Shown here: piece after piece, positions 94-36,075 of the stretch
Position numbering within the stretch: the first letter of the stretch is position 1
How the letters are laid out: the number at the start of each line of letters is the position of its first letter
Assembly (NCBI GenBank): GCA_945830575.1
Contig: CALZZE010000012.1
Span: forward strand, 1 to 64,000
From: an uncultured Subdoligranulum sp.
GTDB lineage: Bacteria > Bacillota > Clostridia > Oscillospirales > Ruminococcaceae
Length of the DNA: 64,000 bases
Reading direction: 5' to 3'
Program-made: the position numbers and the translations under genes
Notes under the pieces: generated by a model
What the model saw: the letters and a program-made list of their open reading frames with translations, nothing else
Databases searched by the model: none
Told to the model about the DNA's origin: nothing

Positions 94-657
94 TCACGTT
101 AGAATACTGCCCGGAAATACCAGTGCGGTGTACAAATAGGTGAGGGCCTCATCGAGAGTTGCGTACCGGCAGATGACGGATGGATCTGGTTTGTTTTCAG
201 GAAAAATATGACCGTGTGGAAGGTCACAGCACATCAGCCATGCATCGAGGCGGGACTTCATGGTTGAGGTAATTTGTTCTAAAGCTGCACCATGTTTCGC
301 GTTGGAAATAAACACAAAACTGTCATAGCCAGCGCCATTTGGCTGCTCAACAAGCTCCAGCAGCGTATAGCGGTCATAGTAATCAAACAGGAGCAGCCTG
401 CCGCCGAAGGATTCTACTGCCGATGTTTCATGATCGTGTTCCGAAATTTGCGGAGTAATTGACAGGATGTCACGCAGCTGACAGAGTAAATGATCTCCAT
501 CGGGAGGGTACTCGTCGGTGCCCTTCAGGCTCTTAATTTCCTCGAAACAGTATGCTTGATCAGATGGTGAGAGCTGTCCGATTAAGGCTTTTTCGATGCA
601 TTCCAGCAGGTCGGCGCGATAGCCGGCCGAAATTTTTTGCTGGATAGATTGTTCCAT
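94..657 (-). CDS. hypothetical protein (187 aa)
   Basis: No family is recognised. The start is placed at the ATG preceded by AGGAGG about 8 nt upstream; a longer in-frame extension to 699 has no ribosome site of its own. The protein is acidic and soluble-looking, with no signal peptide or membrane segment. It is divergent from the XRE regulator at 802 across a 144-bp gap and lies at the left end of the AT-richer island, so it is probably island cargo. Function unknown. Confidence 0.6.
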   Translation of the reverse strand: MEQSIQQKISAGYRADLLECIEKALIGQLSPSDQAYCFEEIKSLKGTDEYPPDGDHLLCQLRDILSITPQISEHDHETSAVESFGGRLLLFDYYDRYTLLELVEQPNGAGYDSFVFISNAKHGAALEQITSTMKSRLDAWLMCCDLPHGHIFPENKPDPSVICRYATLDEALTYLYTALVFPGSILT

Positions 658-801
658 GTTTCCGTCCTCCTGACTCATAAACGTGCAATCAACGCACATC
701 TTGCTATATCAATTGTATATGTTGTCCCCATAAACGGCAATACTCATTTTGTCCGATTGTGGGTAAAATACCATTATGGATATAGGAAAGAGGTGGGGCA
801 G

Positions 802-1149
802 GTGAACGATGAGGCTTTGACAACGCTGCAAGGAATGGGGCAACGAATTGCGGCGCGTCGCAAACAGCTTGGCATGACGCAGGAGCAGGTGGCGGAATTA
901 TCTGGATTGTCCAACCAGTTTTTTGCGTGTGTGGAGCGCGGCGTGAAAAATATACGTGCCGAAAGTCTGCTGCGCGTGTGCAAGGCACTGGATGTGAGCG
1001 CTGATTACCTGCTGACCGGACAGGTAACAGATGTTGACCGCTTGCAAATCGTTGAGTTGGTGCGCCCCCTGAAGGATAAACAGCTGCATTGTCTGGAGGA
1101 AATCATTCGCCAGTACGTGACGGCGGTTGCGGGTGAGGAGAATGGCTGA
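802..1149 (+). CDS. XRE-family HTH transcriptional regulator
   Basis: 115-aa Cro/C1-type repressor. Residues about 10-65 form the HTH (RIAARRKQLGMTQEQVAELSG then NQFFACVERG), followed by a short helical tail likely used for dimerisation. The start is a GTG at 802 with AGGTGGGG just upstream; the frame is open further back to 637 but without a ribosome site. Divergent from the unknown gene at 94-657, whose promoter it probably controls. Convergent with the integrase and separated from it by a strong terminator. Confidence 0.8.
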   Translation: MNDEALTTLQGMGQRIAARRKQLGMTQEQVAELSGLSNQFFACVERGVKNIRAESLLRVCKALDVSADYLLTGQVTDVDRLQIVELVRPLKDKQLHCLEEIIRQYVTAVAGEENG

Positions 1150-1205
1150 TTGCGGGATTGTTCGGCTTTGCCTATAGTTTGCCCGGCGGACATCACCATA
1201 AAACA

Positions 1206-1247
1206 AAAGAAAACCACCACAGCCGCAAAACTGTGGTGGTTTTCTTT
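1206..1247. terminator. bidirectional rho-independent terminator
   Basis: A perfect 17-bp inverted repeat (arms 1206-1222 and 1231-1247, core ACCACCACAG/CTGTGGTGGT) has an 8-nt loop, with A-rich and T-rich outer arms. It lies between two convergent genes (XRE regulator and integrase) and would stop transcription from both sides. Confidence 0.9.
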
Positions 1248-1259
1248 ATGGGGGCATCA

Positions 1260-2621
1260 TCAAAATCCAAATACGTCGTCCATCACAGCGGCGCTTCGGG
1301 CCGAGGCGCGGGCGATGGCGTGGGCATAAATTGTGGTGGTCGTAGTCGGGGAGGCGTGTCCCAGAGTGCCGGCGACAGTAGTCACGGGACAGTGGCGCTC
1401 AATCATAATCGTTGCCGTTGTATGGCGCAGCGTGTGCAGATGCACAGGCGGCAGGTTATGACGCTTCACAAATCGCGCAAACCATTGTGTCAGAGAGTCC
1501 GGGTTTGGCACTTTACCGTCCATGTCTCCAAAAACAAACATATCATCATCCAAATCTCCGCCGAGCTCCTGCATCTGCGCCCGGCGATAGGACTGCCATT
1601 CCTGCAAGCAAATGATCGTAGCAGACGCTGCTTTGATGACACGGTCGGAGGAATCGGTTTTGGTCTCGCCCATAATGCACCCTTTGCCCGGCATGTACTG
1701 CACCGCCGCATCAATGGTAATCAACCCGTCCTCCCAATCGATGCTGGACCAACGCAAGGCCATCAGCTCCTCACGACGCATGCCCGTCGTAAGGAGTATC
1801 GTGATTGCAGTGCGCTGCATAATCGGCTCCCGCTGCAAACAATCCAAGAGACGTTTGGCCTGCGCAATTGTCAAAACCGGCTGCTTTTTGCCGTCCTTGC
1901 GGGGCAGACCGACACGCTCAGCGGGGTTACTGGATAAAAGCTGCCATTCTACGGCCTTGCTCAAAATAGACGAGACCAACCGCAGATAGTGCCGAACTGT
2001 GGTTCCGGAGCGCGTCTTACCGGGGTGTTCCCGAAACAGTTCCTCCAACGGCTGTCCCAGTGCGGCACTGATGGCCTCGGCTGTACGGCGGGACACCGTC
2101 TTGCCTTGCGCAGCGCTGCGTACCGTGTCCTCGGACAACTGGGTGGCCGTCTGGAGCTCCCGATAGGTAGCCATTCCCTGCTGGGCCATGTGATGCTTTA
2201 AGTCGCCGTTTACCACCCACGTATCCGTTCCGGAGCCCGCCAGAAGGCTGTCGCGCAGTTCAATAATGTGGGCCGGCTTGATCTTGATCAGGTACAGATG
2301 TCCCAAAACGGCGTTGATGGCAGGTAGCATACGCTGGTAGTCGTATACTGTTTTCGGCGCCAGCTCCGGCGTTGCATACTGCGTAATCCAGCGTTCCACA
2401 AAGACCTCAAATTTGATGTGTTGACCGGAATAATCACCGCTTTCGACCTCTTGTTCGAACGCCAGTTTCTGACGTTCCAGTTCTTTCTTGGTTCGCGCTG
2501 CCGACCATCCCGGCTCCGGCCGCCATGTCATGGTGCGCTCGATCTGATGCCCGGAGGCATCGTATCCGTCGTAGACGCGGATTTGGTACGTGCCGTTTGC
2601 ACGTTTTCGTACAGATGCCAT
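1260..2621 (-). CDS. int: tyrosine recombinase/integrase with inserted HTH domain
   Basis: 453-aa phage-type site-specific recombinase that would integrate and excise the island. It has an N-terminal AP2-like arm-binding region (about 1-60), a SAM-like core-binding domain (about 65-220) and a catalytic domain with Arg (TTGMRREEL), HxxR (LHTLRHTTA), LGH (GTLGHAS) and nucleophile Tyr (TTIYAHA), so all key residues are present. The core-binding domain is interrupted at about residues 145-198 by an XRE-like helix-turn-helix (ATYRELQTATQLSEDTVRSA). The start is the ATG with GGAGG 5 nt upstream; the longer frame to 2753 lacks a ribosome site. Divergent from the excisionase-like gene. Confidence 0.9.
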   Translation of the reverse strand: MASVRKRANGTYQIRVYDGYDASGHQIERTMTWRPEPGWSAARTKKELERQKLAFEQEVESGDYSGQHIKFEVFVERWITQYATPELAPKTVYDYQRMLPAINAVLGHLYLIKIKPAHIIELRDSLLAGSGTDTWVVNGDLKHHMAQQGMATYRELQTATQLSEDTVRSAAQGKTVSRRTAEAISAALGQPLEELFREHPGKTRSGTTVRHYLRLVSSILSKAVEWQLLSSNPAERVGLPRKDGKKQPVLTIAQAKRLLDCLQREPIMQRTAITILLTTGMRREELMALRWSSIDWEDGLITIDAAVQYMPGKGCIMGETKTDSSDRVIKAASATIICLQEWQSYRRAQMQELGGDLDDDMFVFGDMDGKVPNPDSLTQWFARFVKRHNLPPVHLHTLRHTTATIMIERHCPVTTVAGTLGHASPTTTTTIYAHAIARASARSAAVMDDVFGF

Positions 2622-2987
2622 GATTCCTCCTTCTTGATTGTAAACGGCACCTGTGCTATAATAATAATGTAGGTAATTGCGACAGATTGCCGTCTGTAGT
2701 GATTGCAACAGCCGGGACAGAGTTGCCGCTTTGTCTCGGCATTTTCTATACATATAGTATAGTAGGCGATGAGACCTACAGTCAAATCGGTGGAGCCGGA
2801 TTTTTTTCGGGATTTTTGTATTTTGACTTCAATTGGAGTGTTTACACAAAAGTTTCACATTCTGCTGGCGGTTTTATACGGCATTGCGGTACAAATTAGA
2901 CATTGATACGATATATTTTGTTTGCACTTGCCTTCTGAATCTGTTACAATGTTATTATAAGAACATCTGTAAATGGGAGGCAGCACC
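2622..2987. promoter_or_regulatory. int-xis intergenic control region
   Basis: 366-bp AT-rich gap between divergent integrase and excisionase genes. On the plus strand TTGCAC (2922-2927), a 17-bp spacer and TACAAT (2945-2950) form a good promoter for the xis-like gene. A 10-bp direct repeat (ATTGCGACAG 2676-2685 and ATTGCAACAG 2702-2711, 26-bp period) flanks a small palindrome (ACAGA/TCTGT, 2682-2697). It could be a recombinase, excisionase or regulator binding site. No gene is seen here. Confidence 0.6.
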
Positions 2988-3233
2988 ATGCAAATCCGTA
3001 CGATCTCAGGCGCTGTGCGCCAACTACAAAAGGATGATCCAGACACGGCGGTAACAGCCGCTTACATCAGGCGGCTTGTTTTGGCTGGCAAAATCCCCTA
3101 TACCCGATCAGGAAATCGGGTTTTGCTCAACATGGATGCTTTGCGGAATTACCTGGAGCTCGCAACATATTGTCAGACATCGAATATCCCCACCAAACAG
3201 CAGACAGCGGCCAGAATAGCCTCGGAAAAATAA
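2988..3233 (+). CDS. excisionase-like / HTH_17 DNA-binding protein
   Basis: 81-aa small basic protein. The central part (TAAYIRRLVLAGKIPYTRSG then NRVLLNMDALRNYL) is the MerR-like winged helix-turn-helix typical of excisionase-family proteins (HTH_17). It likely directs excision with the neighbouring integrase or represses it. The start is the second ATG, with GGGAGG 9 nt upstream and a sigma-70 promoter at 2922-2950. Its last 20 codons overlap, tail to tail, the end of the gene at 3173-3748. Confidence 0.75.
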   Translation: MQIRTISGAVRQLQKDDPDTAVTAAYIRRLVLAGKIPYTRSGNRVLLNMDALRNYLELATYCQTSNIPTKQQTAARIASEK

Positions 3234-3748
3234 TGTGGGGGATTATGCCAGTGATTGGCCCAATTGACTGCTTGACGGAAAACAGACTTCGGGACATTTT
3301 CCGAAAGAAGAGAGGGGAGAGTGAAGCTGTCGCGCTCGTGATCCAGTGCCAATCGGTACAGTTCATCCATACAGTCATCAAGCTCATCGGTATACAGCCA
3401 AATAGAAAGAGCCAACAGGATAAAATGGCCGAACAAATCGTACAGGGCAGAGGGACTGTACATGTCTTCCTCCGGGATGCGCATTTCCTGCCGACAATAA
3501 TTGCAAAAACAGTCAATGGATTTATCCGTCAGATAGTCTGCCAATTTTTGTACATTTTTGATGTTGGGATGAGTCCCATCGAAGAGCAATGCGCGGACAG
3601 GAAAATTGGTGCCGAGATATTGGCGCCGCAACGCAATCAAGTCCGCATTGATTGCCTGCGGAGACATCTTGCGCAAACCAAAGCGCTTACGGTTAGAATG
3701 GCGCTGGGCAGCTAAGACAAGTATAGTCGAAAGATTAGTCGGTGTCAT
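3173..3748 (-). CDS. hypothetical protein, last gene of the ClpX-like operon
   Basis: 191-aa protein of unknown family. A CxxC pair (CFCNYCRQEM) and a hydrophobic helix (FGHFILLALSIWLYTDEL) are visible. The start is the ATG overlapping the end of the ClpX-like gene by 14 nt, with GGAGG 9 nt upstream, which implies translational coupling. It is the distal gene of the minus-strand island operon, so it may be an accessory, substrate or effector of that system. The 3' end overlaps the convergent xis-like gene by 61 nt, which is unusual. Confidence 0.6.
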   Translation of the reverse strand: MTPTNLSTILVLAAQRHSNRKRFGLRKMSPQAINADLIALRRQYLGTNFPVRALLFDGTHPNIKNVQKLADYLTDKSIDCFCNYCRQEMRIPEEDMYSPSALYDLFGHFILLALSIWLYTDELDDCMDELYRLALDHERDSFTLPSLLSENVPKSVFRQAVNWANHWHNPPHYFSEAILAAVCCLVGIFDV

Positions 3749-5234
3749 TTTTGGGAACCTCCAAAACCAGTTGAACATCCGAAACATCGTACTCCTTACG
3801 CATTCGGTCCCAGATCAGTTGGATTGCTGCCGGGATACGCTGGGAGGTACGCTTGCGGCTTCGCATAATAAATTTCCCATAAATTTTAACGAAAGTAGAA
3901 GCGTGCTCATCAGGCTTGCTGGCAGCATCGGTGCACATGATATCGTAAGTAGAACGCCCGCCTTTAGGTGCCTCTTTGAGGGTATTTGCTAATTTGGCCA
4001 GGGATGCCATGTCGCACTGGCCGTTGGGTAAACAATGAAGCAAGTAGTAAATAGAACAGGTCAAAAAAGCGTGCAGCTCATCTACATGATGCATGTTTCC
4101 GCCCGCGCGACGGTACCCTGTACACAGGATGCTGGCTAACCGCTGTGCACTGGTCGAGGTAATTACCTTAATTTTTCGTACGCGAACAGTATCTCGGAAA
4201 AAAACAACGGCAGAATTGCGCTTTCCATGCTCATATCGCACGTTGTCGCCCTCTAAAACGACTTTGCTGATGGTTTTATCCTGCTCGACTTGCTGCAAAG
4301 CGCTGTGCATCGCGCTGTGGATATGCGGCGCCACGGCGCGTATGCCTGTTCCGGCTCGTGTGCAGCAATCTGCAATGTGCTGCACGGCGGTCTCATCAAT
4401 GGCCAGCCCCACACCGTAGACGTATGCCAGATAGCGCTGATACTGATACAGCAGTGTGCCCTTGTGCAAGGATAAAAGTTGACGGTAATCCGCCAAAGCG
4501 GGCGCAGGGATTTGCAAGACACAAGAAATACGGCCGAGTAACTCTTCCATAACGCCGAATTGTAGCAAATCCGCATGGGTGACCTGCTGGAGTAGCTCCG
4601 CCTTGCTCCAATGGGGACGGGTCTGGTTGCTGCCAAATCCGATGCCTTTGGCGGGCACCAGACGCTTTTCGACAATACTCTCAATGCCTGCAAAAGAGCC
4701 CGCATACAGGATAAGCCAGCGGTCAACCGGCACCGTGATAGGAGACTCTGCTTTGTCCGGGTGCAATGTCAGGCTGGTACCATTGGCCAACTGCAGCAGG
4801 TTGGGGGTCGGGTCGCCATCTCGCGTGGAATCTCATACCATTTTGTCTATTTCGTCCAGAAAGAGAACGCAATATCGAAAATGTTGCTCGTCCATGGCAT
4901 CCTTTGCAGCCAAAATTTTTTGACTCAGGGATTCGCCCTTCCAGCCTTCCCTCGATAACGCAGAACAGTCCACTGCCAGATATCCCAGTCCCAGCATCTC
5001 GCACAGCTTGCGCAGCAAAAAGGTCTTGCCGGTGCCGGTACGGCCCAAAATGAGTGCGGACTGAGACGGCAAATCGTCAATAGACATACCCATCTCAATC
5101 AGGGTATTGCGATTGATGTGCTGAGCCATCATGGCGCACAGGTCACGCGCATACTGCTGCTGGCTGGGCAGCGGGGCCACCCGGCTCAGCAACTGATGAT
5201 AGATCTCCTCGGTACTCCACACCTTCAGATGCAT
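3735..5234 (-). pseudogene. ClpX-like AAA+ ATPase interrupted by an in-frame TGA
   Basis: About 498 codons in one frame, broken by TGA at 4833-4835; the halves are 4833-5234 (133 aa) and onward to 3735. The first half has Walker A (GRTGTGKTFLL), the ClpX-like GWKGE pore region and Walker B (CVLFLDEIDKM). The TGA falls two codons after Walker B. The second half keeps family landmarks: GSFAGIE, the ClpP-docking IGF loop (KGIGFG), LLQFGVMEELLGRIS (Arg finger) and sensor-2 (RAGTGIRAV), then about 150 unrecognised residues. The N-terminal zinc domain of ClpX is absent. The ribosome site is AGGAGAAGG. The frame continues without shift, so this is a nonsense mutation (for example CGA to TGA), a readthrough site or a sequencing error. 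Confidence 0.8.
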
Positions 5235-6138
5235 AGTTTCCTTCTCCTTTTTTCGGGTTTGGTGGTGGAACCACCTCTCCGGTTTGTGGGTCGTACCATT
5301 GGAGCAGTTCGTTCACAGGCACGCCCAAAAAATTGCTGGCACGCAGATAATATTCTGCCACAGGTGTACGACGTCCGCACTCATAACTGTTGATCTGGTC
5401 AAAGCATTTGCCGATGCGCTGGGCAAGCTGCCGTTGAGTCAATCCTGCCTGCATCCGAAAATACTTTAACCCGCGCACAGGTTTTGTTTCGATGATTGTA
5501 AATGCATAGCTTGCCGGACGAAATCGGAACTGTTCGATGTACTCATCGAAATCATACCGTTCAATATCCGGTTGATCCGAATAAACGTTTCTGACCATGA
5601 CAATTTGATAACAAAAACCGTGCGTAATCATTTGTTTCGCGCATCGGATTTCATAGGGTGTGAAGTAAGCCTGGCGGGAATCCTCACCACTGGATTTGAC
5701 CTCTATGGCCATGGGCTGGCCGGCATCGTCAAAATTCAAAAAGTCCATGCCTTTGAGGTCCAGCGGCCCGCTGGTCACTTTCATAATCAAACCGGCCATG
5801 CCAAGATGCTGCTCTGCTACTCGTTGACGCTCCATCTGAAGGACGATCTGCTCACCTTTGTAGGCGATATCCATGTGTTTGAGCTCTGATGCAAAGGCGG
5901 TGTGAATCGGTGGATGCGTTTCATAAAACGAGACAGGCATCGCGGTATAATCGTTGCGAAGCAGCATATCTACCGATACGCCAAAATAAGCAGCCAGTTT
6001 TCGGTATTTTTCAATCCCGCCGACAACCCCGCCATACAGGATATCGGCCAGATCCTGCATGGTGATCCCCGCGCGATTGGCCAGAGTCCAGGTTTCAAGC
6101 CCAAGATAGGCTCGCAGGATATCAGCAATGTGCAGCAT
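5143..6138 (-). CDS. HTH - DUF3883 (NO VEIN, EVK) - HTH protein, copy 2
   Basis: 331 aa. The N-terminal XRE-like HTH is about 1-60. A middle domain (about 100-200) has the pattern GMDFLNFDDAGQPMAIEVKS followed by a conserved helix and the strand YQIVMVRNV, matching DUF3883/NOV, a PD-(D/E)xK nuclease-like fold (Asp...Glu-x-Lys seen). A second XRE HTH is about 230-290 (RMQAGLTQRQLAQRIGK). It overlaps the upstream paralogue by 17 nt and the downstream ClpX-like gene by 92 nt; the extra low-complexity tail of about 40 residues causes the long overlap. Role inferred: DNA-binding nuclease or regulator of the island system. Confidence 0.75.
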   Translation of the reverse strand: MLHIADILRAYLGLETWTLANRAGITMQDLADILYGGVVGGIEKYRKLAAYFGVSVDMLLRNDYTAMPVSFYETHPPIHTAFASELKHMDIAYKGEQIVLQMERQRVAEQHLGMAGLIMKVTSGPLDLKGMDFLNFDDAGQPMAIEVKSSGEDSRQAYFTPYEIRCAKQMITHGFCYQIVMVRNVYSDQPDIERYDFDEYIEQFRFRPASYAFTIIETKPVRGLKYFRMQAGLTQRQLAQRIGKCFDQINSYECGRRTPVAEYYLRASNFLGVPVNELLQWYDPQTGEVVPPPNPKKGEGNYASEGVEYRGDLSSVAEPGGPAAQPAAVCA

Positions 6139-6997
6139 TGTGAGGCACCTCCATCATCAGCAGGTCGTCTACCGGGACACCGAGTATTGTAGCCATTGTC
6201 AGGTACATCTGAGCAGATGGCGCGGCGTTGCCCCGTTCATAGGCCAACAAGTCCGCTACGCTGCATCCGAGATAACCAGCAAAATCGCTTTGGGGAATCC
6301 CCAAACGCTCACGGTATCGTGCAATGTTGTTTTTTTCCGTTTTGGGCGGGCATTTCGGAACCGCAAGTATCGTGGCCATACTCTTACAGCGCGTTGCAAG
6401 CAAATGCTGGTACGTCATGCGTTGTATTTTGGGTTGATTGGAGTCCAGATCCTGTATCAGAATGACCCAATACTGACCGTTTTGGGCAATCATTCGCTCG
6501 GCCGTCTCGCACTCGTTTGCTGACATTTTAAAGCCGCCCTGCTCCTGTATGCTGGATTTGACCTCCAGCGCCATGGGGATTCCGTCACAATCAAAGGACA
6601 GGATATCGTAACCCGAAAGTCGGGGATAGTCCGCCGTTCGGCGAACTAAGGGGAGGAGATTGGGATGTTCCTGTGCTACACGGGCGCGTTCCTGGGCCAA
6701 AATCAACTGCTCTCCCCGAAATCCAATGATGCTCGGCTCATCAGTTGCGATGGTCTTTTCCTTGGGCACCGGGTGGCGCTGGAAAAAGTCGGCGGGAATC
6801 AGCGTAAAATCATTTGCCAGCAGCGCGTCCACCGGGATCCCCCACAAATCGCTCAGACGCAGATAGGTTTCAAGGGTGCCGTGCGCCCCGCCCTGCTCAA
6901 GTCGCTGCAGAGTGCCCACGGAAATGTCCAGGTGGTGTGCCAGCTGCAGCTGAGACAGGCCCAAATAGCTGCGCAAAATCATGATCAACGATATCAT
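6122..6997 (-). CDS. HTH - DUF3883 (NO VEIN, EVK) - HTH protein, copy 1
   Basis: 291 aa, same architecture as its downstream neighbour: N-terminal HTH (about 1-60, LRSYLGLSQLQLAHHLDISV), DUF3883-like core (GYDILSFDCDGIPMALEVKS), and C-terminal HTH (RERLGIPQSDFAGYLGCSV). The two proteins are diverged paralogues from a tandem duplication. GGAGA lies 8 nt before the ATG. First full-size gene of the island operon. The EVK signature suggests a restriction-endonuclease-like fold, but activity is not shown. Confidence 0.75.
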   Translation of the reverse strand: MISLIMILRSYLGLSQLQLAHHLDISVGTLQRLEQGGAHGTLETYLRLSDLWGIPVDALLANDFTLIPADFFQRHPVPKEKTIATDEPSIIGFRGEQLILAQERARVAQEHPNLLPLVRRTADYPRLSGYDILSFDCDGIPMALEVKSSIQEQGGFKMSANECETAERMIAQNGQYWVILIQDLDSNQPKIQRMTYQHLLATRCKSMATILAVPKCPPKTEKNNIARYRERLGIPQSDFAGYLGCSVADLLAYERGNAAPSAQMYLTMATILGVPVDDLLMMEVPHNAAHC

Positions 6998-7043
6998 GGC
7001 TGTTCTCCATTATATAAGGTGGGATAGATTCAGATTTTGTTGT

Positions 7044-7079
7044 GTGACCGCAAGGGTCACTGACCCCGCGGGTGAATCT
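7044..7079. promoter_or_regulatory. tandem operator-like inverted repeats before the nuclease-like genes
   Basis: GTGACC and GGTCAC arms (7044-7060, 5-nt spacer) are followed at once by a second related unit built on ACCC/GGGT (about 7062-7074). A wider AGATTCA (7026-7032) / TGAATCT (7073-7079) pair encloses both. It lies 47 bp upstream of the first HTH-DUF3883 start, so it may be a binding site for one of the HTH proteins, or an RNA hairpin in the leader. Confidence 0.5.
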
Positions 7080-7085
7080 GGTAGG

Positions 7086-7157
7086 TCAGGATGGGCCGCA
7101 GTGCACGACGGCCATTACGAACGAGAGAAAAAGACGGAACAAGTTCATTGCAAACAT
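7086..7157 (-). CDS. possible small hydrophobic peptide (23 aa)
   Basis: Short frame MFAMNLFRLFLSFVMAVVHC followed by GPS and stop, with AAAGGAG 7 nt before the ATG. One hydrophobic helix makes it look like a small membrane peptide or a leader peptide. It lies in the predicted transcript between the promoter near 7430 and the HTH-DUF3883 genes. Coding status is unproven. Confidence 0.35.
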   Translation of the reverse strand: MFAMNLFRLFLSFVMAVVHCGPS

Positions 7158-7215
7158 GAGGATACTCCTTTGTGTATGGTAGATTTTAAGGGCTGGAACG
7201 TGAGAGATTCGGGAG

Positions 7216-7362
7216 CTATCTCGGGTGGATTTGGAAGGTTAAAAAGACTCGGGTTGGTACAAAGCGGATTACCCTGTTGATCGTGACGCCAGTGAAGAGG
7301 GATTCGTCAACTGTTTTCAAGGGGACTTGAGTTGCGTCTTTTTTCTGAAACATTGAAAGCAT
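7216..7362 (-). CDS. small ORF at the head of the island operon (48 aa)
   Basis: 48-aa frame starting MLSMFQKKDATQVPLKTVDE, with an excellent AAGGAGG ribosome site 5 nt from the ATG, placed directly downstream of the minus-strand promoter at 7425-7453. No family is recognised; it ends in a basic, hydrophobic segment (INRVIRFVPTRVFLTF). It is likely the first gene of the operon that continues into the HTH-DUF3883 and ClpX-like genes. Confidence 0.5.
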   Translation of the reverse strand: MLSMFQKKDATQVPLKTVDESLFTGVTINRVIRFVPTRVFLTFQIHPR

Positions 7363-7373
7363 GGGACCTCCTT

Positions 7374-7453
7374 ACAATCAGGTGATTGTTTCTTGAAAGT
7401 ACACATACATTTGATTGTATAACTATAATACAACAATCTTTTGACTGCGTCAA
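7374..7453. promoter_or_regulatory. divergent promoters with shared palindromic operators
   Basis: Minus-strand promoter: TTGACG (7453-7448), 17-bp spacer, TATTAT (7430-7425), reading toward the 48-aa ORF and island operon. Plus-strand candidate: TTGAAA (7393-7398), 17 bp, TGTATA (7416-7421), reading toward the XRE gene at 7524. A perfect 16-bp palindrome with arms ACAATCA and TGATTGT sits at 7374-7389, and a second GATTGT...ACAATC pair spans 7413-7438 over both -10 boxes. This is the expected layout for an autoregulating XRE repressor controlling the divergent operon. Confidence 0.65.
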
Positions 7454-7523
7454 CCCCTTTTTCAAAACTTTTGCTTGCAATTTTTTTGAAAATTTTGTAT
7501 CATATGATTGGGAGGAATGCATC

Positions 7524-7916
7524 ATGACAATCGGAGAGAAAATCAAATACGCCCGACTTCAGGCGGGAATGTCACAAAAAACGCTTGGGAATAAGCTTGG
7601 CATATCTTATCAGTGTATTGCGCAATGGGAAAACAATCTTCGTCGGCCAAAACTGGAGAATATTCTCAAGCTGGCCGCTGCCCTTGAAATTGCCCCCTCT
7701 GATTTGGATGATTCTATTGCAGGAACGGCTCAAATGTCACCCGCAAGGGATGTTTCTGTTGATCGTATCCAAATCGTTTTGGGGGAGGAGCGAGCAAACC
7801 GCTTGTGCCAATCGCTGAATGCGCTGAATGAACAGGGAAAGAACACAGCAATCCAGCGAGTGGAGGAACTTACGGAAATTTCCCGTTATACAAAAGACAG
7901 GGAAGACAAGGTTTGA
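7524..7916 (+). CDS. XRE-family HTH repressor divergent from the island operon
   Basis: 130-aa protein with an N-terminal Cro/C1 HTH (KIKYARLQAGMSQKTLGNKL then SYQCIAQWENN) and a C-terminal helical tail. Start ATG with GGAGG 8 nt upstream; the frame is open further back but unsupported. The palindromic operators in the divergent promoter region make it the likely repressor of both its own gene and the HTH-DUF3883/ClpX-like operon. It is the last island gene before core-like sequence resumes near 8.3 kb. Confidence 0.8.
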   Translation: MTIGEKIKYARLQAGMSQKTLGNKLGISYQCIAQWENNLRRPKLENILKLAAALEIAPSDLDDSIAGTAQMSPARDVSVDRIQIVLGEERANRLCQSLNALNEQGKNTAIQRVEELTEISRYTKDREDKV

Positions 7917-8004
7917 AGTCGTACAGAAAAAGTCTGGGTGAAGTGTTCCCGTCGATGGGGATACTGAACTCTCGGAAATGCTGAAAATGAGGAACAATAG
8001 ACAA

Positions 8005-8037
8005 AACCGCAAGTCATCGGCTTGATGGCTTGCGGTT
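8005..8037 (+). terminator. rho-independent terminator after the XRE gene
   Basis: Stem arms AACCGCAAG (8005-8013) and CTTGCGGTT (8029-8037), with further inner pairing (CATC/GATG), followed by ATTT. Confidence 0.75.
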
Positions 8038-8177
8038 ATTTCAGTGCACCCGGAGGCGGGGGATAGAAAATCAGAATCCGGCAATGATTCGGATTCATAG
8101 GGGATCTTTTGTGAGTCTTCTGGCCGTTTGAGATGTGGAGCGCTCTGCCATTCTCTGTGTGTGAAGTGAGACAATAA

Positions 8178-8216
8178 AAAGTCAGGCTCCTCGGTTTCGC
8201 CGGGGGTCCTGACTTT
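8178..8216. terminator. terminator-like hairpin
   Basis: Arms AAAGTCAGG (8178-8186) and CCTGACTTT (8208-8216), with a GC-rich inner stem, A-rich on one side and T-rich on the other. It does not directly follow a surviving gene and may be the original terminator of a core gene displaced by the island. Confidence 0.55.
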
Positions 8217-8334
8217 CTGTAACATTGCAATATTATGCTGACCTTGGACACATCCCCTGCATCTTCCGTTTTTTCCATCATGTCGGTTTTTGCAGGGAAA
8301 GTCAATGCGGCGAGCGGCTGGGAGCAGTGCAAAA

Positions 8335-8362
8335 TTGACAGAAAAAGGAACTTCCGTATAAT
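8335..8362 (+). promoter_or_regulatory. promoter of the Crp/Fnr regulator
   Basis: TTGACA (8335-8340), a 16-bp spacer and TATAAT (8357-8362), 20 bp before the start codon: a near-consensus sigma-70 promoter. Confidence 0.75.
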
Positions 8363-8382
8363 GAAAACAGGGAGGGGATTCC

Positions 8383-9042
8383 ATGGAAGTGAAGGATTTT
8401 TTTCCGGTCTGGAACGATCTGTCCCCGGCGGAACAGCAACTGCTGGAGGGCGGCGCCGTCCGGCGGACGGTGGAAAAGGGCGCGGTGCTGCACAGCGGCA
8501 GCCTGGACTGCACCGGTCTGCTGCTGGTGGAGCGCGGACAGCTGCGCGCCTGTATCCTTTCCGATGAAGGCCGGGAAATCACGCTGTATCGTCTGCTGGA
8601 TCGGGACATCTGCCTGTTTTCCGCCTCCTGCATGCTGCGCTCCATTCAGTTTGAGGTGACCATTCAGGCACAGCGGGAGACAACGCTGTGGGTGCTTGCG
8701 CCGGAACCTTACCAGTGCGTGATGGAGCACTCGGCCCCGCTGGCGAATTTCACCAACGAGGTGATGGCGGGGCGGTTCTCTGACGTGATGTGGCTGCTGG
8801 AACAGATTTTGTGGAAACGCTTTGACCAGCGGCTGGCGGCGTTTCTGCTGGAGGAAAGCGCACTGGAGGGCACCAGCGTGCTGAAAATCACCCACGAGGC
8901 CATCGGCAGCCACATGGGCAATCCCCGCGAGGTGGTGACCCGGATGCTGCGCTATTTCCAGTGTGAGGGGCTGGTCAGGCTGTCCCGCGGAACGGTGGAA
9001 ATTCAAAACGCGGACGGGCTGAAACAGCTTGCACGCATATAA
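8383..9042 (+). CDS. Crp/Fnr-family transcriptional regulator
   Basis: 219 aa. The N-terminal cyclic-nucleotide-binding-like beta-barrel (about 10-130) lacks an N-terminal Fe-S cysteine cluster. The C-terminal winged helix has a recognition region THEAIGSHMGNPREVVTRML (about 168-190). It probably senses redox or a small ligand and activates the convergent CoA-disulfide-reductase/rhodanese operon; a GTGATCAC palindrome at a class II activator distance lies before that operon. GGGAGG precedes the ATG. Confidence 0.9.
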   Translation: MEVKDFFPVWNDLSPAEQQLLEGGAVRRTVEKGAVLHSGSLDCTGLLLVERGQLRACILSDEGREITLYRLLDRDICLFSASCMLRSIQFEVTIQAQRETTLWVLAPEPYQCVMEHSAPLANFTNEVMAGRFSDVMWLLEQILWKRFDQRLAAFLLEESALEGTSVLKITHEAIGSHMGNPREVVTRMLRYFQCEGLVRLSRGTVEIQNADGLKQLARI

Positions 9043-9046
9043 AAAA

Positions 9047-9082
9047 CAGGACATTCTCCCACGGGTTGCGGGGAATGTCCTG
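9047..9082. terminator. bidirectional terminator between convergent genes
   Basis: Arms CAGGACATTC... (9047-9060) and ...GAATGTCCTG (9070-9082), preceded by A6 and followed by a T-rich stretch; it lies between the regulator and the reductase gene. Confidence 0.85.
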
Positions 9083-9087
9083 CTTTC

Positions 9088-10779
9088 TTATTGGTCCATG
9101 CCGCAGGGGAGGGCCTGTTCCGTCAGGCGGCGGTCGTGCATCACCGCGTCATAGTAGCGGAACCCGCCGGAGAAGTTGTAGCACTCAAACCCATGCCCGG
9201 CCAGAATGCGGCAGGCAATGTAGCTGCGCAGGCCGCTCTGGCAGATGACATAGACCGGCTTATCCGGCGGAAGCTCGCCCAGCCGTTCCCGCAGCTCGTC
9301 CACCGGAATGTTGACAAAGCCCTCGATGTGGCCCCGGCGGTATTCCCCGGTTGTGCGGGTGTCCAGCAGGGTCACACTGCCGTCGCGGGGCAGGGCGTCC
9401 GCGTCCTCCAGATGCCACTGCCGCAAAAGCCCGTTGGCAAGGTTGTCCACCATAAACCCGGCCATGTTCACCGGGTCCTTGGCGGAGGAATAGGGCGGCG
9501 CATACGCCAAATCCAAATCCTTTAATTCGGTGGCCTTCATTCCGGCGTGAATGGCGGTGGCCAGCACATCGATGCGCTTGTCCACCCCTTCGTACCCGAC
9601 GATTTGCGCCCCCAGCAGGCGGTATGTTTCCTGCTCAAAGACCACCTTCATGGTCATGACCCGGCCGCCCGGATAGTAGCCCGCATGGCTCATGGGGGAA
9701 AGAAGTACGGTGTCCACGTTCAAGCCAGCCTTTTTCGCGTTGGTTTCGTTCACGCCGGTGACAGCGGCGGTCAGGTTAAACACCTTGATGACCGAACTGC
9801 CCTGCGACCCCCGATACCGGCTGTCGCCGCCGCAGATGTTGTCCGCCGCAATGCGCCCCTGCCGGTTGGCGGGACCGGCCAGCGAAATCAGCGCGTCCTG
9901 CCCGGTGACGGAGTGCTTCACCTGCACCGCGTCGCCCACGGCGTAAATGTCGGGAACCGAGGTCTCCATGCGGTCGTTGACCACAATGCTGCCCTTGATG
10001 CCCAGCGCCAGCCCGGCCTCTCTGGCAAGGGCGGTATCCGGGGTGACCCCAATGGCCAGCACCACCATGTCGGCGTGGAGCGGCGCTTCGTCCTTCAACA
10101 GCACGTCCACGCCGCCGTCCTTCTCCACAAAGCCCTCCACCGTATGGCCCAGCGCCAGCCGGACACCGTTCCTGCGCATCTCGGCGTGGAGAAGCGCCGC
10201 CATGTCCGCGTCAAAGGGATTCATCAGCTGTCTGGGACGCTGGACGATGGTGACCTCCAGCCCCAGCGCCCGCAGGTTTTCCGCCAGCTCCAGCCCGATG
10301 AAGCCGCCGCCCGCCAGCACGGCGGATTTGGGGTGGTGTTGGGTGATGTGGTCCTTGATGCGCAGGGTGTCCTCCACGGTGCGCAGCGTGAACAGCTTGT
10401 CCAGCCCCACGCCGGGCAGCCGGGGCTGGGTGGGTCTGGCGCCGGGGGACAGCAGCAGCTTGTCATAGGATTCCTCAAAGGTCTCGCCGGTTTCCAGATT
10501 GGTCACCGAGACCGTCTTGCGGTCCGGGTGCAGTGCGGTGACCTCGTGGTGTACCTTCATGCTGACCCTGAACCGGGAGAAAAAGCTCTCCGGCGTCTGG
10601 AGGGTCAGCTCCGCCGGGTCGGTGATGACATCACCGATGAAATAGGGCAGACCGCAGTTAGCGTAGGAAACGTAGCCGCTGCGCTCAAACACCACGATTT
10701 CCGCCTGTTCGTCCAGCCGGCGGATGCGGGCCGCCGCCGTTGCGCCGCCCGCCACGCCGCCCACAATGACAACTTTCAT
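9088..10779 (-). CDS. CoA-disulfide reductase-type FAD/NAD(P) oxidoreductase with C-terminal rhodanese domain
   Basis: 563 aa. FAD-binding GGVAGGATAAARIRR at the N-terminus; the redox-active single cysteine is in SYANCGLPYFIGD (about residue 43), as in CoA-disulfide reductases and NADH oxidases. NAD-binding AGGGFIGLELAENL is central, followed by the dimerisation domain. A C-terminal rhodanese domain (about 465-555) has active Cys in VICQSGLRSYIA. The family reduces CoA-disulfide/CoA-persulfide and handles sulfane sulfur; cytoplasmic. The ATG directly follows the stop codon of the upstream rhodanese gene, so the two are cotranslated. Confidence 0.93.
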   Translation of the reverse strand: MKVVIVGGVAGGATAAARIRRLDEQAEIVVFERSGYVSYANCGLPYFIGDVITDPAELTLQTPESFFSRFRVSMKVHHEVTALHPDRKTVSVTNLETGETFEESYDKLLLSPGARPTQPRLPGVGLDKLFTLRTVEDTLRIKDHITQHHPKSAVLAGGGFIGLELAENLRALGLEVTIVQRPRQLMNPFDADMAALLHAEMRRNGVRLALGHTVEGFVEKDGGVDVLLKDEAPLHADMVVLAIGVTPDTALAREAGLALGIKGSIVVNDRMETSVPDIYAVGDAVQVKHSVTGQDALISLAGPANRQGRIAADNICGGDSRYRGSQGSSVIKVFNLTAAVTGVNETNAKKAGLNVDTVLLSPMSHAGYYPGGRVMTMKVVFEQETYRLLGAQIVGYEGVDKRIDVLATAIHAGMKATELKDLDLAYAPPYSSAKDPVNMAGFMVDNLANGLLRQWHLEDADALPRDGSVTLLDTRTTGEYRRGHIEGFVNIPVDELRERLGELPPDKPVYVICQSGLRSYIACRILAGHGFECYNFSGGFRYYDAVMHDRRLTEQALPCGMDQ

Positions 10780-11100
10780 CTATCGTTCCACCTTTCCCCG
10801 CCATGCGGCGATGCCGCCGATGTTGGTCACGTTGGTATATCCCATCTGCTTGAGCAGGCTGGCCGCCTGACTGCTCCGCGCCCCGGACTGGCAGTAGACA
10901 AACAGCGGCGCGCCCTTGTCCTTGACGGCGGCCTCCGCGTCATGCAGCGTTTGCAGAGGAATATTTTTGCTGCCGGGGATATGCCCCTGCGCGTATTCCT
11001 GCGGGGTGCGAACGTCCAGCAGCACCGCGCCCGGCGTGGCATTGTATTCTTCCACGCCCTGATGAATATCCGGCTGTTTCAAAAAATCGAAAAAACCCAT
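10780..11100 (-). CDS. single-domain rhodanese (sulfurtransferase)
   Basis: 106 aa; one rhodanese domain with catalytic Cys in LFVYCQSGARSSQAA (about 68-82). It moves sulfane sulfur between carriers, here probably feeding the fused reductase-rhodanese encoded directly downstream (its stop TAG abuts the next ATG). Start chosen at ATG 11100 because GGAGG lies 7 nt upstream; the longer frame to 11145 has no ribosome site. Confidence 0.92.
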   Translation of the reverse strand: MGFFDFLKQPDIHQGVEEYNATPGAVLLDVRTPQEYAQGHIPGSKNIPLQTLHDAEAAVKDKGAPLFVYCQSGARSSQAASLLKQMGYTNVTNIGGIAAWRGKVER

Positions 11101-11135
11101 AAGATGTCCTCCTTGTATTGTCCTGATTATTCTAT

Positions 11136-11176
11136 AGTATACCACAGATTTTCATTTGTTTCTGTGATGTGATCAC
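11136..11176 (-). promoter_or_regulatory. rhodanese operon promoter with candidate Crp/Fnr site
   Basis: TATACT (11141-11136, minus strand) serves as -10, but no good -35 is seen, as expected for an activated promoter. A GTGATCAC palindrome (11169-11176, within a wider GTGA...TCAC pair from 11164) is centred about 41-43 bp upstream of the expected start, the classical class II activator position. A link to the convergent Crp/Fnr gene is inferred. Confidence 0.45.
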
Positions 11177-11355
11177 CCATTGCTTTCAGCCTTCAAACGC
11201 TGTTTGAGCTTGCGCCAGTATGCTGTGGGATTGGCACGATCGGTCAGTACGCTGACTGCATCAACGATAGAAAAATACCATTCTTCTTGTTCTTCGTCCC
11301 ATGCTGTGCGGATACGCTTGTCTTCAAAAAGCTGAATCTTATCGTTTTGACTCAT
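11173..11355 (-). pseudogene. BRO-family N-terminal fragment
   Basis: 60-aa frame starting MSQNDKIQLFEDKRIRTAWD and containing EEWYFSIVDAVSVLTD and AYWRKLKQRL. These are the first residues of BRO-N (phage antirepressor-like) proteins, which normally run several hundred residues. The rest is missing, so this is a truncated remnant. The start overlaps the upstream phosphatase gene by 17 nt. Confidence 0.7.
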
Positions 11356-20829: not shown

Positions 20830-21453
20830 TCACAGCGATTTCCGGAGATAATCCGCCGTGATGGTGTCGGCTCGCGCTGCCATGTCTGCCGGGGTGCCGG
20901 CAAACACGATTTCACCGCCGGCGATGCCGCCGTCCGGCCCCACGTCAATGAGCCAGTCCGCCTGTTTCATCACATCCAGATTGTGCTCGATGACGATGAC
21001 GGTATTGCCGCGTTCCACTAAGCTGTCCAGAAGTTCCATGACCTTCTGCACATCGGAGGCGTGCAGTCCGGTGGTGGGCTCGTCCAGCACATAGATGTTG
21101 CCTTTCTTGTCCAGATACTTGGCCAGCTTGACCCGCTGGCGCTCGCCGCCGGAGAGGGTGGACAGGGGCTGCCCCAGAGACAGATAGGGCAGACCTACCT
21201 CCAGCATGGCTCCCAGCGCTTTGCGGAGCTTTTTGTTCCCCTTGAAAAACTCGTAGGCCTCCCCGGCGGACAGATCCAAAATCTCCACGATGTTTTTGCC
21301 GTGATAGCGGTAGGAGAGAGCCTCCTCGCTGTACCGCCTGCCCTCGCAGGCCTCGCAGACGGTGGTGACCGGGTCCATGAATACCAGTTCGGTGACGATC
21401 TGCCCCCGCCCGCCGCAGACCGGGCAGCCGCCCTTGCTGTTGAAGGAAAACAA
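20830..21453 (-). pseudogene. 3' fragment of a UvrA-family ATPase
   Basis: About 207 aa matching only the C-terminal quarter of UvrA-type proteins (normally 750-950 aa): zinc module CPVCGGRG...CEACEG, ABC signature LSGGERQRVKLA, Walker B IYVLDEPTTGLHASD and the H-loop VIEHNLDVM. The first ATP site, UvrB-binding region and Walker A are missing. Homology begins at FSFNSKGGCPVC with no ribosome site, so it is a truncated remnant. The full-length relatives may be the short UvrA-like proteins of Firmicutes rather than the repair enzyme. Confidence 0.8.
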
Positions 21454-33916: not shown

Positions 33917-34026
33917 ATTTTGTGCTCTGAAATTCAGATAAATTCCTAAAAATGGGGAAAGGCTGTTGACATTTTCAGACAAAAAGCGCTATAATCGAAG
34001 TGGAATCATCCGGAGGAGGTACCGCC

Positions 34027-36075
34027 ATGAGCCAACATCTGCCATTGACTGTCCGCGTTCCCATCGAAGCGGACAACCCGGCCATCTGCCGGGAGGAGAG
34101 CCGCTGCATCAAATGCGGCATGTGCAAGGAGGTCTGCACCCAGGCCATCGGTGTGCATGGTACCTATACGCTGGCCCAGACCGGCGGCCATGCCATCTGC
34201 ATCCACTGCGGGCAGTGCGCAAACGTCTGCCCGCCCGCCAGCATCACCGAAATTTACGAATACCATGCGGTTCGTGAGGCTGTCAAAGACCCGGACAAGG
34301 TGGTCATCGTCAGTACGTCGCCCTCGGTGCGCGCCGCGCTGGGCGAGGAATTCGGCATGCCCAAGGGCAGCTTTGTGCAGGGAAAAATGGTGGCCCTGCT
34401 GCGGGCGCTGGGCGCGGATTATGTGCTGGACACCAGCTTTGCCGCCGACCTCACCATTCTGGAGGAGGCCAGTGAGCTGGTCCGCCGCATCACCACGGGG
34501 GACAGACCGCTGCCGCAGTTCACCAGCTGCTGCCCGGCGTGGATCAAATTCGCCGAGACCTACTTTCCAGAACTGATTCCTAATCTCTCCAGCGCCAAGA
34601 GTCCCCTCGGCATGCAGGGACCGACCATCAAGACCTATTTCGCCCAGAAAATGGGCATTGACCCTAAGAAGATCGTCAACGTGGCGCTGACCCCCTGCAC
34701 CGCCAAAAAGTTCGAGATCCGCCGCCCCGAGATGAACGACGCGGGCAAGCGTCTGGGGGATCCCACCATGCGGGATATGGATCAGGTCATCACCACGCGG
34801 GAGCTGGCGCTCTGGGCCAAAGAGGAGGGCATTGACTTTGCCTCCCTGCCGGACAGCGAGTACGACAGCCTGATGGGCGAAGCCTCCGGCGCGGGCGTGA
34901 TTTTCGGCAACACCGGCGGCGTGATGGAGGCCGCACTGCGCACCGCCTATTTCTTCATCACCGGAGAAAACCCGCCGAAGGAACTGCTGAACCTGCAGCC
35001 GGTGCGCGGGTATGAGGGCATCCGGGAAGCCAGCCTTACCATCAACGGCCTGACCGTAAATGTGGCGGTGGTCTACGGCACCGCCAACGCCCGCAGGATG
35101 ATCGAGCGGGTGCGGGAAGGCAAAAAGCAATATCATTTCATTGAGGTCATGACCTGCCCCGGCGGCTGCATTGGCGGCGGCGGGCAGCCGCGGGACCTCG
35201 AAAACGATGCCGACGACATCCGCAAGGCGCGCATCCAGAGCCTGTATGGGCGGGATGCGGCGATGACCCGGCGTCTCAGCCATGAAAACAGCGAGCTTCA
35301 ACAGCTGTACGGGGAATTCTACGGAAAGCCTTTGAGCGAGCTGGCAGAAATTATGCTGCATACGGCCTATCGCGACCGCAGCAGCGACCTACATCAGGAA
35401 GGAGCAAATCGTATGTCGAAATGGAAATGCAGTGTCTGTGGTTATGTGTATGAGGGCGACGTGCTGCCCGAGGGCTTTACCTGCCCCGTCTGCCGTCAGC
35501 CGGCCTCCGCCTTTAAGAAGGTCGAGGAGGTTCCCGCCGCCGGCGGCAACCCCTATGCCGGAACCAAGACCGAGAAGAACCTGCAGGAGGCTTTCGCCGG
35601 TGAGAGCCAGGCCCGCAACAAGTACACCTACTTTGCGAAGGTCGCCCAGCAGGAGGGCTATGAGGAGATGGCCGAGTTGTTCCTCAAGACTGCCCGCAAC
35701 GAGCAGGAGCACGCCCGCGTCTGGTTCCAGGAGCTGGGCCACATCGGCAATACCGCCGAGAACCTGCTGGCCGCCGCGGAGGGCGAGAACTACGAGTGGA
35801 CCGATATGTATGACCGCATGGCCCGCGAGGCGGACGAGGAAGGCTTCCATGAGCTGGCCGAGAAGTTCCGCAAGGTGGGCGCCATCGAGAAGCGCCATGA
35901 GGAGCGCTACCGCAAGCTGCTGAACGATGTCAAGATCAAGCAGGTGTTCGAGAAGAGCAGCCTGACCATCTGGGAGTGCCGTGTCTGCGGCCACATCGTG
36001 GTGGGAACCAAGGCTCCGGAGGTCTGCCCCGTGTGCAGCTACAGCCAGTCCTACTTTGAAGTTCACAAAATCTGA
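34027..36075 (+). CDS. [FeFe]-hydrogenase (group B type) fused to rubredoxin-rubrerythrin
   Basis: 682 aa. Two [4Fe-4S] ferredoxin motifs ([11 protein letters not shown] about 27-37; [11 protein letters not shown] about 58-68). H-cluster motifs TSCCPAW (about 166), TPCTAKKFE (about 222) and [16 protein letters not shown] (about 380) indicate a complete active site of group B type. From residue 463: rubredoxin ([10 protein letters not shown]...CPVC), ferritin-like diiron domain ([23 protein letters not shown]) and a terminal rubredoxin-like knot ([10 protein letters not shown]...CPVC), as in NADH peroxidase/rubrerythrin. AAGGAGC and an ATG (35413) lie exactly at the joint, so the second half may also be made alone. 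Confidence 0.88.

Follow-up and report, generated by a model that had tools for sequence, protein, structure and literature searches.

The DUF3883 domain has been termed a novel restriction endonuclease (REase) domain (PMC3710099) and is presumed to represent a group of type II REases (PMC10609329), and the ClpXP protease is described to degrade HsdR, the nuclease of type I restriction, when host DNA is incompletely modified (PMC12707154). Two DUF3883 proteins and a ClpX-like protein are encoded together in a four-gene operon, A-B-C-E, on a stretch of 64,000 nucleotides from an uncultured Subdoligranulum sp. (contig CALZZE010000012.1; referred to as the window), which forms the start of contig 12 in a genome of 2.88 Mb and 69 contigs. 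As a tentative reading, which may well turn out to be wrong, it is proposed that A and B act as nucleases of the restriction type, held in check by ClpP-linked proteolysis via C, and that the module is cargo of a small integrated element under the control of an XRE-family switch. The gene of C is interrupted in this copy.

The four genes are tightly packed on the minus strand at 3173-6997, in the order A (6122..6997), B (5143..6138), C (3735-5234 as a whole), and E (3173..3748), with overlaps of 17 nt between A and B, 92 nt between B and C, and 14 nt between C and E, when E is taken from 3748. The gene of the XRE-family regulator (7524..7916, plus strand; matches in Pfam and NCBIfam) is divergent from the operon. 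Ribosome-binding sites are found upstream of A, B, C, E, and the XRE gene, and for A, B, E, and the portions of C on either side of its internal stop codon, the gene's own frame has a higher coding score than each of the other five. A first-pass annotation made from the letters alone had described a compact minus-strand operon next to an integrase gene and an excisionase-type gene (xis), with a divergent XRE gene; all of this is borne out, the xis match lying slightly under its cut-off. It knew of no named system with such a composition, and none is described in the Pfam, PADLOC, NCBIfam, and PHROG libraries scanned. The overlapping frames argue for a single functional unit. This speaks against an explanation in which C, together with E, would be an anti-restriction device destroying host defence nucleases, with A and B as mere neighbours or regulators; ClpX-like matches in phage records, for example in one of 636 kb, would suit such a device, which is nevertheless regarded as very unlikely.

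Protein A (291 amino acids; GGAG ribosome-binding site) is composed of a helix-turn-helix (HTH) domain, a NOV_C (DUF3883) domain, and a second HTH domain. B (331 amino acids) is a paralogue with 33% identity to A. The NOV_C family (PF13020) is matched with 37.2 bits by A and with 28.9 bits by B, the Pfam gathering cut-off being 22.1. Pfam recognizes an XRE-type HTH C-terminally in both proteins and, in A, N-terminally as well; the corresponding stretch of B can be aligned to that of A, but Pfam detects no HTH in it. Of the two HTH-DUF3883-HTH proteins announced in the first-pass annotation, the central domain and the C-terminal HTH are thus confirmed by Pfam for both and the N-terminal HTH for A only. 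In the PADLOC scans, A and B match the models PDC-S36, PD-T4-1, and TmtA through their DUF3883 domain. The likeness is limited to this domain, and the comparison was made at domain level only. A complete PADLOC system was not matched, the hits being domain-level ones to HTH, DUF3883, and AAA; neither E nor the second part of C was hit.

A further comparison is with another genome of the same class, in which the gene of a 257-amino acid DUF3883 protein overlaps a MethyltransfD12 gene (locus L229 from G1206:C7, at 7488-9382 of L229; 120 bits for MethyltransfD12 against a cut-off of 22). This is a probable restriction-modification pair of a DUF3883 protein and a D12-class N6-adenine methyltransferase. 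Its DUF3883 protein is 35% identical to A over 79 residues. G95, E96, E103, R104, R106, V107, G129, D131, D136, G139, E145, V146, K147, S148, S149, and E162 are invariant across this protein, A, and B. By their motif, D131, E145, and K147 are taken by us to form a PD-(D/E)XK-like active site. Because D131 and E145-x-K147 are common to A, B, and a methyltransferase-linked DUF3883 protein, A and B may be read as restriction-type nucleases with a PD-(D/E)XK-like DUF3883 core, for which the shared residues are good evidence, though not proof. The restriction-endonuclease-like EVK core that the first-pass annotation named for DUF3883 is supported in the form of D131 and E145-V-K147. The pair differs from A-B-C-E in several respects. 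It has an overlapping methyltransferase gene, whereas no cognate DNA methyltransferase is found by Pfam among the ten proteins encoded at 97-7913 of the window; its DUF3883 protein contains no Pfam HTH; and neither C nor E is matched in the 16 kb that were opened around it. A structural model of A is poor (pLDDT 55). It shows a strand-strand-helix-strand-strand arrangement around and after D131-K147, in a central domain that is mostly below pLDDT 50; the nuclease fold is thus matched at the level of secondary structure only. A fold search with the model gave no match at E ≤ 0.001. The 50 matches shown are either HTH-type proteins or belong to a single unrelated enzyme, whose chains superpose at about 23 Å rmsd. 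Only the HTH domains are firmly supported by the model.

Protein C resembles ClpX. Its first part (4833..5234, minus strand; 133 codons) contains Walker A, the pore loop, and Walker B of a ClpX-like AAA+ protein and ends at an in-frame TGA (4833-4835) directly after Walker B. The second part (3735..4790, minus strand, from the first TTG) continues in the same frame with the rest of the ClpX-like fold. After the TGA, the frame stays open for 365 codons, or 351 when counted from the first TTG at 4790, for which no ribosome-binding site is present. Over both parts, the motifs are Walker A GRTGTGKT, a pore loop that reads GWKG rather than GYVG, FLDEIDK, an IGFG loop, a GR finger, and the sensor-2 arginine. 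The IGF loop is the structure by which ClpX docks onto ClpP. With Walker A and B, the aromatic pore loop, the IGF loop, and the arginine finger, C is thus akin to ClpX (NF003745, TIGR00382), from which it differs in the interrupted frame and in several further features. Its two parts reach 37.3 and 82.7 bits with NF003745, far under the curated full-length cut-off of 359, and the second part is 22-32% identical to ClpX. Alignment with eight ClpX proteins reveals the absence of the N-terminal zinc-binding domain and of most of the RKH/pore-2 segment, and C has the same residue at 63 of the 169 columns that are invariant (≥90%) in the eight. These proteins were drawn from 30 loci, the rest, including the ClpX of the host itself, falling outside the motif and length filter. 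At its C-terminus, C is extended by about 165 residues, to which the searches found nothing related. The ClpX-like portion of the second part matches phrog_5534, a family of unknown function (5e-5).

The stop falls within the AAA+ large domain. Since C is split there, neither part holds a complete ATP site, and this copy would probably yield no working unfoldase, barring a sequencing error or readthrough. The ClpX-like AAA+ ATPase of the first-pass annotation is therefore upheld as to its ClpX-type motifs and IGF loop, but, contrary to what was assumed there, it is not intact; the stop had been overlooked. The TGA may be a base-calling or assembly error. Recoding of TGA was also considered; nothing was seen in its support, and no relative of C was found for comparison. 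As C is interrupted, the module is probably partly disabled in this genome. The lesion is also the starting point of an explanation in which the operon would be decaying cargo with no present function and the stop in C, which lacks a re-start signal, its first visible damage. This is rather unlikely: A, B, E, and the XRE gene are open and preceded by ribosome-binding sites, the coding signal persists past the stop, and the TGA could be the base-calling or assembly error just mentioned.

The fourth gene, E, probably starts at 3748, with GGAGG located 9 nt upstream, and would then encode 191 amino acids; a start at 3787, likewise with GGAG upstream, would give 204. E is an orphan on the minus strand, with no match in Pfam, NCBIfam, and PADLOC, and nothing in PHROG beyond two matches at 0.18 and 0.29. 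Its structural model is mostly helical, of low confidence (pLDDT 40), and was discarded as structural evidence.

For the proposed mechanism, A and B would be nucleases, in which a DUF3883 core is set on XRE-type HTH domains that bind DNA. They would be carried as cargo on the small integrase-bearing element and switched by the divergent XRE repressor. On a chromosome without methyltransferase protection, their activity would be restrained by proteolysis. C would act as a dedicated ClpX-like unfoldase that docks on the ClpP of the host, whose gene is located at G000:C6:65898 beside the housekeeping clpX, and would remove A and B from the DNA, with E as adaptor or substrate receptor. The nuclease activity, the docking on ClpP, the role of A and B as substrates of C, and the role of E are all inferred. 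The model has a precedent in the removal of HsdR by ClpXP in restriction alleviation, where a ClpX-type unfoldase and host ClpP clear a restriction nuclease and so shield unmodified host DNA, as would be the case here; unlike there, where the housekeeping ClpX acts, the unfoldase would be an element-encoded paralogue, and no methyltransferase is seen (PMC12707154). This scenario would be the most economical one that uses all parts. If it were true, the module would represent a nuclease barrier that spares the host by targeted proteolysis rather than methylation, and a role would be assigned to element-encoded ClpX-like proteins. Even otherwise, this operon brings a ClpX paralogue together with nuclease-like DUF3883 domains and HTH domains of the XRE type, a combination that is not described in the four family libraries scanned. 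In its fullest form, the proposal would be a methylation-free restriction module, in which the balance between self and non-self of two sequence-reading nucleases is set by their own ClpX-like unfoldase feeding host ClpP; as such, it is quite unlikely.

Several points weigh against the proposed mechanism. A real difficulty is that C is broken while A and B are open, as the loss of a restraint on nucleases should be costly to the host, unless the operon is silenced by the XRE regulator, the stop arose only very recently, or the TGA is an artefact of assembly. The partnership of C with ClpP is not secured, because C is distant from ClpX, with neither the zinc domain nor the greater part of the RKH/pore-2 segment. 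The nuclease fold is not confirmed by the model, given the low pLDDT of the central domain of A and fold matches of note to HTH only. Finally, no relatives of the A-B-C-E set were found in the samples searched.

In McrBC, an AAA+ motor and a PD-(D/E)XK nuclease share the work. By analogy, A-B-C-E could be one effector complex, in which the ClpX-like ring would remodel A and B or load them on foreign DNA, with no involvement of ClpP. The joint occurrence of putative nucleases, unaccompanied by a methyltransferase, and an AAA+ protein in one mobile-element operon is in line with this. A similar picture emerges from a study of 21 defence systems selected from E. coli: 11 possess a part of the DNA-binding or cleavage type, in many cases with a distant PD(D/E)XK likeness, and a predicted methylase is included in just one of the 11 (PMC9519451). 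However, C belongs to the ClpX/HslU type and carries an IGF loop, it is broken while A and B are not, and no complete PADLOC system was matched. The effector complex is therefore considered unlikely.

The searches for relatives were made in phages, plasmids, viral contigs, and samples of order, class, phylum, and family genomes, which overlap. A was found in the window's own genome only, among 394 order genomes at 1e-12. Among 398 phylum genomes at 1e-5, seven had matches, namely the own genome and six in which they were confined to HTH stretches. No match to A was obtained in phages. In plasmids, ten records were returned at 0.01, none of which covered 80% of A and most of which concerned HTH stretches. 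One of these, record H3 (2e-3), matches residues 73-185, the DUF3883 part, in a protein annotated as DUF3578; another, record H2, proved to be an ordinary XRE gene on opening. Viral contigs contained no match to A, to B, or to the alignment of both, and the 55 stretches returned with this alignment from genome contigs included none that could be confirmed. A profile of A and B matched 120 of 341 class genomes at 1e-6, the own genome included, and among the matches listed outside the window all include HTH except that in G1206, the genome of the DUF3883-methyltransferase pair. A scan of genome contigs for DNA encoding G-x-P-M-A-x-E-[VI]-K was set aside: it returned at least 117 loci, 56 of them with another family characterized by F-x-PSNPW after the motif, presumably sulfide:quinone reductase-like. 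At those loci, tblastn with the window proteins gave only weak HTH and integrase matches and one AAA-region match. The same motif followed by two serines was met at no place in viral contigs. Such pattern scans detect close relatives only, and distant ones may exist.

C finds matches in 138 of 150 relatives, at 22-32% identity, which are read as housekeeping ClpX. A further 60 plasmid and 53 phage records match C, the best 20 of each ending by residue 232, and many are read as contaminating chromosomal ClpX; viral contigs gave none. With the extra C-terminus of C, 247 family genomes yielded the own genome and one weak match that was rejected on opening. For E, one poor match (E 0.2, 26%) was obtained in phages, none in plasmids and viral contigs, and none below 0.1 in the PDB; among 233 loci, the DNA of the window alone was returned. 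Relatives of the four-gene set are thus lacking in phages, plasmids, viral contigs, and two genome-contig scans (for E, in phages, plasmids, and viral contigs rather than genome samples). Among the papers listed on DUF3883 and on ClpX in connection with defence, none was seen to describe such a set, and none of those listed on ClpX names DUF3883. As a single instance with a broken gene and no relatives found, the set is regarded as putative nuclease cargo of the restriction type rather than a class of its own.

The operon region looks like a small integrated element, because an integrase gene and xis lie beside the operon, the GC content contrasts with that of the neighbouring DNA, and the right flank is genus-wide while the left end is not. 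The tyrosine integrase (1260..2753, minus strand, with a likely start at ATG 2621) has matches in Pfam and NCBIfam. A Cro/C1-type HTH (residues 185-240) is inserted within the N-terminal half of the protein. A relative of the integrase with 51% identity and an internal TAG is present in the same genome (G000:C20:6344-7699). The xis gene (2973..3233, plus strand, likely start ATG 2988) encodes a small excisionase-type HTH protein and is convergent with E. It reaches 28.6 bits with TIGR01764, slightly below the cut-off of 28.8, so that an integrase and an excisionase, as expected of an integrative element, are both in place with this reservation. Among the ten proteins scanned, no relaxase or transfer genes were found; the contig begins at base 1, and a left part may be missing. 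The GC content is 0.45-0.55 at 1-8 kb, compared with 0.57-0.65 at 8-11 kb, and drops again to 0.44-0.50 at 11-14 kb. The right flank, from a Crp-type gene at 8383 onward, occurs throughout the genus, 7950-11200 being matched in part by 32 of 35 genomes, the own one included. The left 1260 bases have no match in the 34 other genus genomes beyond pieces of at most 42 bases (3 of 34). Ends of the element were not found, nor was a direct repeat of at least 14 nt that would suit attachment sites. No tRNA was detected, and Rfam gave no match. An AraC-family gene adjoins the Crp gene in all five relatives opened. Because the AraC relative of the own genome sits on contig 49, where none of the window proteins is matched nearby, no empty site can be deduced.

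Of 384 order genomes, 9 carry sister integrases (E-values up to 1e-90), and the genome of the window is one of them. Relatives of xis lie beside eight of the eleven sister integrases, and in all eleven places C and E have no match at 1e-3 and A and B match through HTH stretches only. The integrase-xis backbone therefore recurs, and the cargo is unique so far.

Upstream of A, the XRE gene and the operon have a common control region. A palindromic operator-like site, ACAATCA-GG-TGATTGT, is predicted at 7374..7389, with further half-sites at 7412, 7433, and 7505. The palindrome by itself is weak, because it is one of seven perfect 7+2+7 palindromes in 64 kb, where about four are expected by chance. 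The palindromic operators of the first-pass annotation gain substance from the half-sites instead: five of them, with at most one mismatch and two inside the palindrome, lie within 201 bp, compared with about 0.5 expected from the 158 present in 64 kb. Promoter-like pairs for both directions overlap half-sites; that of the operon is TTGACG-17-TATTAT (7425..7453, minus strand). In 1100-8400, 15 promoter-like sites are counted, compared with 7.4 expected by chance. The predicted operon promoter would give rise to a leader of about 420 nt before A (6998-7420). The leader contains a short inverted repeat, GTGACC...GGTCAC, at 7044-7060, which has no Rfam match.

Repressors of integrated elements may be controlled by proteolysis. 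On ICEBs1, an XRE repressor, ImmR, has a proteolysis partner, ImmA, and the repressor of phage Mu is a target of ClpXP. The module might accordingly be a lysis-lysogeny-type switch of the element, in which the XRE regulator, A, and B would regulate integration and excision, C with host ClpP would degrade a repressor upon induction, and DUF3883 would serve as sensor or oligomerisation domain. The location of the operon between xis and the XRE gene with common operator-like sites fits such a switch, as do the two XRE-type HTH domains of A, which match repressors in the fold search (best E 0.002). The locus resembles ICEBs1 in the XRE repressor on an element but differs in that no ImmA-type peptidase family is found among the ten proteins scanned. 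Moreover, a pure regulator would not need the D...E-x-K residues, which are kept in A and B and common to the methyltransferase-linked DUF3883 protein, and the module does not belong to the usual control genes of this element, because it is absent from the sister integrase loci, where xis relatives occur at eight of eleven, C and E at none, and A and B through HTH only. The switch is thus not very likely, and the nuclease cargo under proteolytic restraint is retained as the tentative reading.

At the contig end, an orphan gene for 201 amino acids (94-699) and a divergent XRE gene (775-1149) precede the integrase gene. Only short pieces of their DNA occur in the 34 other genus genomes, and they may belong to the same island. 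On the other side, the enrichment near defence genes envisaged in the first-pass annotation is not seen: among 30 neighbouring proteins from 8.4-57 kb, a single PADLOC match was obtained at 1e-10, to an ABC/UvrA-like fragment, and there is therefore no sign of a defence island. This ABC-ATPase fragment of 207 amino acids (20830-21453) matches PADLOC mad3 at 3e-33, yet is read as a UvrA-type C-terminal piece. Farther downstream, a single frame of 691 amino acids (34000-36075) encodes an iron-only hydrogenase with large and small subunit domains, fused to rubrerythrin and a rubredoxin-like domain.

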